DNA from: Spirochaetota bacterium
Lineage (GTDB): Bacteria; Spirochaetota; Spirochaetia; Treponematales; UBA12059
DNA length: 64,000 nt
Assembly (NCBI GenBank): GCA_022703505.1
Contig: JAKLDN010000002.1
Coordinates: 62,001 to 126,000 of the forward strand
Direction: 5' to 3'
In this document: piece after piece, positions 41,418-61,230 of the stretch
How positions within the stretch are numbered: the stretch's first letter is position 1
Layout: each line of letters opens with the position of its first letter
Made by a program: the position numbers and the translations under genes
The notes under the pieces: model-generated
What the model saw: the letters and a program-made list of their open reading frames with translations, nothing else
Databases searched by the model: none
Told to the model about the DNA's origin: nothing

Positions 41418-42116
41418 ATGACCCGTTCCCGCCGGTCCCGGACCGGCGTCGAGGCTGCCCGGCTTCATCCGCCGGTCGCCCTGCTCGCGGTGTTCGTCTG
41501 CCTAGCGTCGGGCGCCGCGGCTCAGACGGCTTCCGCCCGGCCCGCGGGCGTCCTGTCCGACGACGGCGGAATCGCGGCCGGCCGCCCGGCCTGGAGCATC
41601 GACGTCCTGGCCGCGCCCATGCTGGTCCTGTCCGGGGACGGCCTGGCCCCGGTCCTGCCCCACGGAGGTTTCACCTTCGGCACGGGGACCGAGCTTCGGG
41701 CGGGGGCCTGGATTCCCCTTCGGATTCAACTGGAGTACTTCCATGTCTTCCCCTCCGCGATCAGTTCCGCCGGGGACCTGTACCGTTCCTTTGCCGGGTG
41801 GGACCTGGCCCTGGGTGCGGGGGCGCGCGTGCTCTCCCGGGAGGGCGGCGCCCCTCTCGGATTGGACCTGCTGGGCGGGGTCTCCTTCGGGGCCGCCCGC
41901 TATCCCGGAACCACCGTGGCCTTCGCGACCTTCTCCGCGGACCTGACGGTCCGGGCGGATTTCACCAAGTCCGGGAACGGGGGCTGGCGGGCCGTCCTGC
42001 CCCTCTCCTGGATCTTCCGCCCCGGGGCCCGGTCCTTTTCCGCGGGGCTGGGTGCAGGCTACGTCCTGCCGCCGGGCCGGCGGTCCGGGGCGGCCGTCCC
42101 GGGAGCCTCCGAATGA
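41418..42116 (+). CDS. predicted exported beta-barrel-like protein
   Basis: Protein of 232 residues of no family I recognise. Residues 15-36 form a signal peptide ending AAAQ. The remainder alternates short amphipathic strands and glycines (LRAGAWIPLRIQLEYFHVF, LALGAGARVL, LDLLGGVSFGAARY) and ends in GLGAGYVLPPG, in keeping with a small outer-membrane barrel. TATACT lies six bases before ATG 41418 with no ribosome site. Its stop overlaps the ATG of the caspase-like lipoprotein (ATGA), so the two are co-translated. Confidence 0.7.
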   Translation: MTRSRRSRTGVEAARLHPPVALLAVFVCLASGAAAQTASARPAGVLSDDGGIAAGRPAWSIDVLAAPMLVLSGDGLAPVLPHGGFTFGTGTELRAGAWIPLRIQLEYFHVFPSAISSAGDLYRSFAGWDLALGAGARVLSREGGAPLGLDLLGGVSFGAARYPGTTVAFATFSADLTVRADFTKSGNGGWRAVLPLSWIFRPGARSFSAGLGAGYVLPPGRRSGAAVPGASE

Positions 42117-43039
42117 CGCGCCCGAAGCGGTCCGGAAAGCGCCTGTTTCAGATCCTTCTGTTCACCCTTACCTGTCCACTGTTCACCCTCTCCTCCTGCT
42201 CCTTCGAGATCACGGCCACGAGGTATGCCCTGGTGTACGGGGCACAAAACTACGATAACGCGACAGATTTGAACTATACTGACGATGATGCCATTTTCAT
42301 GAAAGCTGCACTTGAGGCTGCCGGATGGTCGGTTATAGTCATCAGGGAGCCTAAAGTGACCCGTGACCAGTTTCTTCAAGATATAATGGATCTGGCTAAC
42401 AACCCGGATGTCCAATCCGACTCTTCGATTCTTGTGTATTTTTCCGGTCACGGAACCTTTGATTCCGATGGGAATACCTATATATGCCCAACAGATACGA
42501 CTTTCGATGGAGAAGGAGAAACAGAATACTCAAGTTGTATTTCTTCTGGTGAAATTCTTTCAGCGTTGCAAGCTTTTTCGTGCAGGAACAAAGTCGCGAT
42601 CTTAGATACTTGTTATTCTGGTGGATTAGTATCCGTTACCAATACAGGAACCACCGATGCAGCGGATCCGGATTATACCAACGGAAGTTCTACCTCGACG
42701 CTCCTGGCCACTTTAAAGAATTACTCCACGCTGTTCGGCGATGCTTTCAGGACGGGCAGCGTTTCGGATCCGATAGTCGTAACCGCCGCCGGATCGCAGG
42801 AAGAATCCCTAGAGCTATCCACATACGGACACGGAGTATTCACGTACTTCTTTCTGCAGGCTGCTGAAAAAGGAGACTTGAACGGTGATGGTCACGTGAC
42901 GATCCAGGAAGCTTTTTCGTACGCGAAGGGGAAAGTCGAAACCAATTTCAATACCTTGGGAGAAATATATCCAACTTACTCGGGTAGCGAGTTCCTCCCC
43001 AGGATCTCCGGGAACGCCCGGGACATCGTGATCTTTTGA
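42113..43039 (+). CDS. caspase-like (C14) peptidase, predicted lipoprotein with EF-hand motif
   Basis: Protein of 308 residues. Residues 1-29 are a lipoprotein signal (lipobox LSSC). The peptidase C14 domain follows: YGAQNYDNATDLNYTDDDA, catalytic His in VYFSGHGTF (about 115) and catalytic Cys in ILDTCYSGG (about 164). Near the C-terminus GDLNGDGHVTIQEAF matches a Ca2+-binding EF-hand loop. From about 42230 to 42980 base composition falls to roughly half G+C, unlike the first 110 bases and the neighbours, suggesting a transferred catalytic part joined to a local signal sequence. Confidence 0.88.
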   Translation: MTRPKRSGKRLFQILLFTLTCPLFTLSSCSFEITATRYALVYGAQNYDNATDLNYTDDDAIFMKAALEAAGWSVIVIREPKVTRDQFLQDIMDLANNPDVQSDSSILVYFSGHGTFDSDGNTYICPTDTTFDGEGETEYSSCISSGEILSALQAFSCRNKVAILDTCYSGGLVSVTNTGTTDAADPDYTNGSSTSTLLATLKNYSTLFGDAFRTGSVSDPIVVTAAGSQEESLELSTYGHGVFTYFFLQAAEKGDLNGDGHVTIQEAFSYAKGKVETNFNTLGEIYPTYSGSEFLPRISGNARDIVIF

Positions 43040-60503: not shown

Positions 60504-60546
60504 TCTATAAAGGCCCCGGACGAGTCAGGTGGAGGCAGGACAGAAC

Positions 60547-61230
60547 ATGCCCGATAAAACCCATTCCCATCTTTTGGTTAGAGTGCTTGTGAAGGCCGCA
60601 TTCGTGATCGCTGTGATGGCCGCATTGTTCTTCGGAACTGCGGGGAGCTTCCGGTATATGAACGGGTGGATATATCTCGGAACGATTACGATCACGCTGG
60701 GCACTGGAATAACGTTGCTGTATAGAAACGATAAGGCGTTGCTTGAAAAAAGAATCAATACAAAAGAAAAGGAAACGAAGCAGAGATTCATTGTCATCAT
60801 CTCGGCCATTCTCATGACCGCGATATATGCGGTGCCCGGATTCGACTTTCGATTCGGATGGTCCGGAATGCCCGTTGTTCTCGTTGTGGCCGGGGAAATC
60901 GTACTTATCGTCGGATATTACCTGAATCTGAACGTGATGTTGATCAACAGCTATGCCTCGAGGGTCGTCGAGATCCAGGATAACCAGAAGCTCATAGATA
61001 CGGGATTGTATGCGATCGTACGGCACCCCATGTACATGGCGATCTCCTTGGTGTACATAGGGACTTGTCTCGTCCTGGGATCCTATTTCGCGCTGATACC
61101 GTGCATGTTAATGATACTTGTCCTGGGATATAGGGCGGTCAATGAGGAAAAGACGCTGATGAATGGGCTGGATGGATATTCGGAGTACATGAAAAAAACA
61201 AGGTATCGAATCATTCCCTATATTTGGTGA
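60547..61230 (+). CDS. isoprenylcysteine carboxyl methyltransferase-like membrane protein
   Basis: Membrane protein of 227 residues with five or so hydrophobic segments. The C-terminal part, DTGLYAIVRHPMYMAISLV and NEEKTLMNGLDGYSEYMKKTRYR, matches the ICMT/phospholipid methyltransferase group. Base composition is well below that of its neighbours (around 45% G+C with many AAA/ATA codons), suggesting recent transfer. ATG 60547 follows GGAGGCAGGA; GTG 60529 is an alternative. Confidence 0.85.
   Translation: MPDKTHSHLLVRVLVKAAFVIAVMAALFFGTAGSFRYMNGWIYLGTITITLGTGITLLYRNDKALLEKRINTKEKETKQRFIVIISAILMTAIYAVPGFDFRFGWSGMPVVLVVAGEIVLIVGYYLNLNVMLINSYASRVVEIQDNQKLIDTGLYAIVRHPMYMAISLVYIGTCLVLGSYFALIPCMLMILVLGYRAVNEEKTLMNGLDGYSEYMKKTRYRIIPYIW

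Follow-up and report, generated by a model that had tools for sequence, protein, structure and literature searches.

A lipid-anchored caspase homologue with a predicted outer-membrane barrel partner in Spirochaetota, and a catalytic segment that differs as exchanged DNA would

The Caspase Gene and Its Barrel Partner

The genes described here lie in a 64,000-nucleotide stretch of a Spirochaetota genome, called the window below. A gene at 41418..42116 (+) encodes a secreted protein of 232 aa predicted to be an 8-stranded outer-membrane-type β-barrel (AlphaFold, Foldseek), and it is followed at 42113..43039 (+) by a gene for a caspase-homologue (C14) lipoprotein of 308 aa. The preliminary description placed this second gene correctly, with its ATG at 42113 and its stop ending at 43039. 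The barrel stop and the caspase start overlap by 4 bp (ATGA, 42113..42116, +), in agreement with the translational coupling that had been proposed.

By every test made, the window protein is a C14 peptidase. Peptidase_C14 (PF00656) matches residues 36-289 with E = 1.1e-17 and clears the Pfam gathering cut-off (64.9 bits vs 21.4); the same family is matched by all 38 aligned members (38/38) of a 40-member set, G047 and G052 having been left out of the caspase alignment. From the N to the C terminus, the protein consists of a signal helix, an LSSC lipobox, the C14 domain, a poorly ordered linker, a p10-like half, and the tail FLPRISGNARDIVIF. The catalytic motifs are SGHG (His113) and DTCYSGG (Cys167), and both residues are kept in 40/40 family members, so that the intact His/Cys dyad noted earlier stands. 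Acidic S1 residues of the metacaspase/orthocaspase type are also present, namely Asp59 in the DA motif (39/40 rows) and Asp165, two positions before the cysteine (40/40). AlphaFold predicts a caspase fold (pLDDT 82.9), for which Foldseek returned MALT1, metacaspase-9, and caspases with E values of 1e-10 to 1e-7. The NCBIfam model NF047832 (caspase, EACC1-associated) is matched by all 38 aligned members, with a best E of 8e-23; the window protein falls below its cut-off (79 bits vs 140), and an EACC1-associated identity was rejected on that measure.

The lipoprotein signal reported for this protein was likewise recovered, as a helix (residues 9-26) followed by the lipobox LSSC with Cys29, seen in both the sequence and the AlphaFold model. 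This position is a cysteine in 38/40 members, the remaining two rows being gapped there. In the model, the first strand follows the lipid anchor after only about 7 residues, and the caspase domain should therefore sit close to the membrane.

A canonical 12-residue EF-hand loop, DLNGDGHVTIQE (residues 255-266; 42875..42910, +), is conserved across the orthologues and may bind Ca2+. It lies between predicted helices 242-253 and 264-280, forming a helix-loop-helix in the AlphaFold model. Loop positions 1 (D255), 3 (D/N257), 5 (D/N259), and 12 (E266) are kept in 40/40 orthologues, and Gly6 in 31/40, while the EF-hand_1 match on the window protein stays below the Pfam cut-off (E = 0.019, 14.9 bits vs 25.4). 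The loop had been described as a C-terminal EF-hand; the canonical loop is there, but it falls inside the C14 match (36-289) and belongs to the p10 half, with no added C-terminal domain.

The upstream protein is, by prediction, an outer-membrane 8-strand barrel with a signal peptide: its model (pLDDT 84.8) contains a signal helix and eight strands within residues 58-216. The best fold matches are Ail, NspA, OmpX, and OmpA (Foldseek E about 1e-5, TM by target 0.5-0.7), which the barrel resembles in predicted fold but not in sequence, identity in the listed rows being ~10-15%. Searches of Pfam and NCBIfam found no sequence family for it, and the 50 best Foldseek matches listed include no gasdermin that would point to a gasdermin-like pore partner. 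Conservation is concentrated in the motif S113..Y122-R123 (S113 in 32/36, Y122 in 34/36, and R123 in 33/36), located in the loop that connects strands 3 and 4; the barrel alignment itself holds 35 rows, that is, 34 of the 36 locus barrels (without G008 and G076) plus a second copy from G001. In the usual topology this loop would face outward, and the location of the best-kept residues in a presumed outside loop hints that contact may take place on that side.

Conservation and Genomic Context of the Pair

Both other genomes of the window's genus (G001 and G002) carry the same gene pair, with the same full-length architecture and the same ATGA overlap. In the order as a whole, caspase matches at E ≤ 1e-3 occur in 105/241 genomes, many of them other C14 proteins; the ortholog set was taken as the 40 best caspase rows, all full-length or nearly so, and the partial copies of G093 and G006 at contig ends were not counted among the loci. 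In 38/40 of these loci the caspase is immediately preceded by the barrel, a count that is partly circular because 20 upstream ORFs overlapping by 4 bp had served to make the barrel profile. Of the 38, 36 were recognised by the profile (E < 1e-3), one (G016) has the barrel in frame with the caspase, and one (G001) retains the last 98 barrel residues at a contig start upstream of the caspase. The two misses are uninformative, since the contig ends 8 bases upstream of the caspase in G154 and about 277 bases upstream in G082. The 4-bp overlap itself recurs in 20/40 loci, an approximate figure given that start codons were picked by script.

Two non-circular searches gave the same picture. The window barrel alone, used as a single query, found five distant relatives in the order (G041, G055, G025, G038, and G023), all of them immediately upstream of a caspase match. 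Across the phylum, the barrel profile matched 18/392 genomes, of which six lie outside the order and had no part in building the profile; all six also have the caspase, adjacent in four and 2.8 kb away in two (G510 and G512). The pair thereby reaches other Spirochaetota, including Spirochaeta smaragdinae, where, as in its congener, inserted genes break the adjacency (2.8 kb); the S. smaragdinae orthologue of the caspase occupies 2472931-2473767 of its record. A barrel match in G176 (E = 6e-4) that lacks a caspase looks spurious, and none of the 17 good barrel matches (0/17) occurs without one.

The pair is flanked in the window's genus by a GntR-aminotransferase gene on one side and an MFS gene on the other. 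Gene order in G002 is kept on both sides (KsgA, Gate, GntR-aminotransferase, the pair, MFS, response regulator, histidine kinase), with permease-type and ArsR-like genes inserted before the pair; the names KsgA, permease, and ArsR were assigned by reading the sequence. Most of the order has other neighbours, namely FolC-like (Mur-ligase-type), DUF445, and SH3-type lipoprotein genes on one side of the pair and TM2 and asparaginyl-type tRNA synthetase (AsnRS) genes on the other; this assignment draws on one tested representative per gene, with the SH3 match coming from S. smaragdinae only. That order is strongly conserved over many genera (L096, L108, L111, and others), with the DUF445 and SH3 lipoprotein genes pointing away from the pair.

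The pair thus occupies at least two genomic locations, and it has therefore moved as a unit. The preliminary description had spoken of a two-gene surface module whose conservation should be checked; judged from these sequence comparisons, the pair is an old, vertically inherited module. One could instead regard the barrel as a mere coupled neighbour with an unrelated task, as the two species that keep both genes 2.8 kb apart might suggest. This is very unlikely in view of an association that spans many genera and at least two locations, the movement of the pair as one unit, and the lack of any good barrel match without a caspase.

Two variants of the arrangement were observed. In G016 (L093), barrel and caspase are joined in one 486-aa ORF, either a fusion or a frameshift of the barrel end, and at G518:C1:3322885-3324854 two tandem caspase genes follow the barrel.

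Base Composition and Segment Comparison

The sharp fall and recovery of G+C within the caspase gene, pointed out earlier, is evident in sliding windows, the value falling from ~73% to 46.6% over the stretch from ~42244 to ~42988. Among 8,896 windows of 745 bp (mean 0.680, SD 0.041), none reaches so low a G+C; they cover 459,526 bases of this genome, made up of the window and 20 further stretches (~13% of 3.66 Mb). Overall GC3 of the caspase gene is 0.54, against 0.75 and 0.75 in the two congeners, and the fall in GC3 from barrel to caspase is larger in the window (-0.40) than in any other of 36 loci, the next values being -0.25, -0.24, and -0.21. A second low-G+C island of the window, at 60529-61230 (+) with about 48%, encodes a 233-aa membrane protein that looks by eye like an isoprenylcysteine-methyltransferase-type enzyme and may be another acquired gene.

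Comparison with the congeners divides the caspase gene into four parts. Its 5' end (42113..42244, +; codons 1-44, covering the signal, lipobox Cys29, and the first β-strand) has native G+C, a GC3 of 0.82, and four-fold degenerate sites identical at 19/22 with G002 and 18/22 with G001. The first half of the apparently replaced segment (42245..42562, +; codons 45-150, the p20 part with His113) has a G+C of 43%, a GC3 of 0.40, and only 8/26 and 5/22 identical sites, respectively. In the second half (42563..42982, +; codons 151-290, with Asp165, Cys167, the linker, p10, and the EF-hand), GC3 is 0.53 and identity 10/44 and 10/46. The 3' end (42983..43039, +; codons 291-308 and the stop, holding FLPRISGNARDIVIF and the last strand) returns to native G+C, with a GC3 of 0.89 and 7/8 identical sites in both congeners.

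The nucleotide alignment with G002 follows the same outline, running at 82% to 42243, failing, and restarting at 42988 at 88%. Taken together, four-fold sites identical to G002 number 18/70 in the middle, 26/30 in the ends, and 72/116 in the barrel, with 172/244 in the GntR-aminotransferase gene and 153/244 in the MFS gene nearby; the deficit of the middle is significant against both the ends (Fisher 2e-8) and the barrel (2e-6). Flanked by ends that are conserved, the middle of the window gene thus departs from its congeners in the way expected of replaced DNA.

The two congeners also differ from each other, by a narrower segment. Between G001 and G002, four-fold sites agree at 19/24 in codons 1-44, 6/31 in codons 45-150, 68/74 in codons 151-290, and 10/10 in codons 291-308, although contig C489 of G001 may derive from another strain and that genome is 6% contaminated. 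The second half is hence 92% identical at these sites, and the difference is confined to the first half of the catalytic part; inside one gene, a step (Fisher 4e-13) separates the two halves. This first half is AT-rich in all three genomes (GC3 0.40 in the window, 0.56 and 0.54 in the congeners). G001 carries two different barrel-caspase starts, L019 at the end of C129 and L020 at the start of C489; the latter contig resembles G002 at 93% over one stretch and the window at 92% over a second, and it may represent mixed strains or a recombinant.

A comparable pattern appears in genus g20, represented by three genomes (G033, G052, and G061); G098, by comparison, is the sole genome of its genus. 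The g20 barrels are 70-73% identical, whereas in the catalytic part the caspase of G061 shares only 36-57% identity with those of G033 and G052, and the catalytic parts have a G+C of 0.37-0.41 vs 0.56-0.57 in the barrels. For G033 and G061, four-fold sites agree at 11/53 in the middle vs 41/92 in the barrel (p = 0.004). Genera g17 and g25 display no contrast between middle and barrel. The catalytic segment would accordingly be a swap zone between fixed ends that recurs within the group but not universally.

Origin of the Divergent Middle

The middle most likely owes its low G+C to homologous recombination in the conserved ends, by which the catalytic segment was exchanged with that of a divergent allele; this allele would belong to the same family and come from an unsampled source. 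Such exchange would be recurrent, having affected the first half only between G001 and G002 and having occurred in a second genus (g20) as well. In a tree of the catalytic part (37/40 rows, without G047, G052, and G058), the window protein groups with G001 and G002 with support of 100/99, yet on a branch of 1.19, compared with 0.047 in the barrel tree; the suggested phylogeny of the C14 domain therefore places the segment within the genus while setting it far from its neighbours. The congeners, at 51-52%, are also the closest relatives of this segment, the next ones reaching ≤43%, and no donor allele was found among 390 genomes of the order.

The preliminary description had read the composition as a foreign catalytic part, with a transferred domain fused to a resident signal. 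The composition is real and the DNA there appears replaced, which makes the claim partly right for the centre of the gene, but the new joining of a foreign domain is not supported, and for the gene as a whole the claim fails, since the same full-length architecture occurs in both congeners and in 37 further loci of the order. Relatives of the same architecture and composition had been named as what would argue against recent transfer; the architecture proved to be the same and the composition different (the GC3 values given above). A recent transfer, in which the caspase domain of a foreign AT-rich bacterium was joined to the resident lipoprotein signal, would account for the sharp intragenic step to the lowest G+C in the 459.5 kb sampled, as well as for the native composition and synonymous similarity of both gene ends. 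It is nevertheless improbable, given the shared architecture, the grouping of the middle with the congeners, the lack of a closer relative outside the genus in the 390 genomes, and the 18-residue tail, which is native too and which a simple 5' fusion leaves unexplained. What survives is the reading that the middle of an old gene was exchanged, rather than a new domain acquired.

Extremely fast evolution of the catalytic part in place, by diversifying selection or local hypermutation with drift towards AT, would need no exchange; it fits the monophyly of the middle with the congeners on a long branch and the lack of a donor. We consider it rather unlikely because of the synonymous steps. Saturation is confined to the middle of the window gene, and between G001 and G002 it abuts near-identity within a single gene, which protein selection alone would not produce; synonymous saturation restricted to one half fits replaced DNA.

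Several other sources were rejected. Transfer of the whole gene from a foreign donor conflicts with the same pair and architecture in the congeners and the order, and silent cassettes in the same genome conflict with the single C14 match there, no second C14 gene being present. Phage origin was dismissed after 15 viral loci gave ≤31% identity and none had the barrel. A diversity-generating retroelement was set aside in view of the length of the varied stretch (~740 bp) and of its differences, which affect every codon position and include indels.

Proposed Function

The partner gene would supply a small 8-strand outer-membrane barrel, and the coupled gene a caspase homologue that is lipid-anchored and carries an EF-hand in the p10 half. 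The two proteins may cooperate at the outer membrane, where the barrel would dock or orient the lipoprotein, and Ca2+ outside the cytoplasm would permit caspase activity. The enzyme would cut proteins after Arg or Lys because both metacaspase S1-pocket acids are kept; Asp59 and Asp165 align with residues that we take to shape the Arg/Lys pocket in metacaspases. A physical complex, Ca2+ dependence, this substrate preference, and a location on the outer face are what we infer from these features. The window caspase is thus most likely a Ca2+-dependent protease with Arg/Lys specificity that is tethered to the outer membrane and works together with its barrel. To the full account, an old two-gene envelope module that acts jointly at the outer membrane and whose middle was exchanged, we give an even chance.

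Alternatively, the caspase could be a periplasmic effector of envelope stress, proteolytic clearance, or regulated cell death, with the barrel as its sensor instead of a surface partner. Caspase homologues are widely tied to cell death or signalling in passages of a 2012 survey (PMC3501461), and barrel-paired sensor lipoproteins are known, as in the case of RcsF with OMPs (PMC4942254). The PADLOC "caspase" model also matches the window protein (E = 3e-10). The best-conserved barrel residues, however, lie in the presumed outside loop, and segment exchange is typical of exposed proteins; the effector role is possible, if on the unlikely side.

More speculative, and doubtful on present evidence, is a recombination-diversified recognition protease, in which an invariant barrel-anchored frame would carry a surface caspase whose substrate-binding half is swapped as a cassette. 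Were this so, related strains would share one platform with different specificities, serving recognition of kin or competitors or evasion of surface attack.

Comparison with Known Systems

Bacterial caspase homologues are usually treated as intracellular death or signalling proteins. The present branch, conserved, lipid-anchored, EF-hand-bearing, and with a fixed predicted outer-membrane partner, departs from that picture, and it occurs in at least one cultured organism, S. smaragdinae, making an extracytoplasmic caspase function directly testable. The segmental replacement, for its part, offers a clear case of a catalytic domain apparently exchanged between fixed gene ends. A search of open-licence literature (titles and abstract starts of the best-ranked matches) returned no description of such a lipoprotein-caspase/barrel pair; as far as these searches reach, the module is real, ancient, and undescribed, with a mechanism that we infer.

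PorU-PorV offers a parallel, as a caspase-fold cysteine peptidase at the outer membrane with a β-barrel partner. The window pair may work alike but is not PorU-PorV: PorU is a C25 (gingipain-like) peptidase and PorV a larger barrel, in contrast to a C14 enzyme with a lipid anchor and an 8-strand barrel. Identity with the type IX PorU sortase was rejected, since C25 is absent from the matches of the window protein and 1/38 members gave a weak one (E = 0.012).

The barrels that accompany RcsF are general porins, encoded apart from it. RcsF itself is a lipoprotein paired with β-barrel OMPs at the outer membrane (PMC4942254), a pairing like the one proposed for the window. It is a stress sensor, however, and the window lipoprotein a protease homologue.

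Prokaryotic metacaspases and orthocaspases (MEROPS C14) share with the window protein PF00656, the His-Cys dyad, the p20/p10 layout, and the S1-type acids. The main-text passages of the 2012 survey report a single N-terminal helix, possibly a signal peptide, in 46 surveyed prokaryotic caspase homologues, together with operons of surface functions, and mention neither an EF-hand nor a lipoprotein-barrel pair (PMC3501461). Within the same bacterial family, most C14 paralogues are long proteins unlike the window caspase. The EF loop is missing from most of these long paralogues and present in some, and the loop alone is therefore not unique to the lipoprotein branch. G008, G098, and others hold ~9-11 C14 matches per genome, mostly long proteins without the lipoprotein layout.
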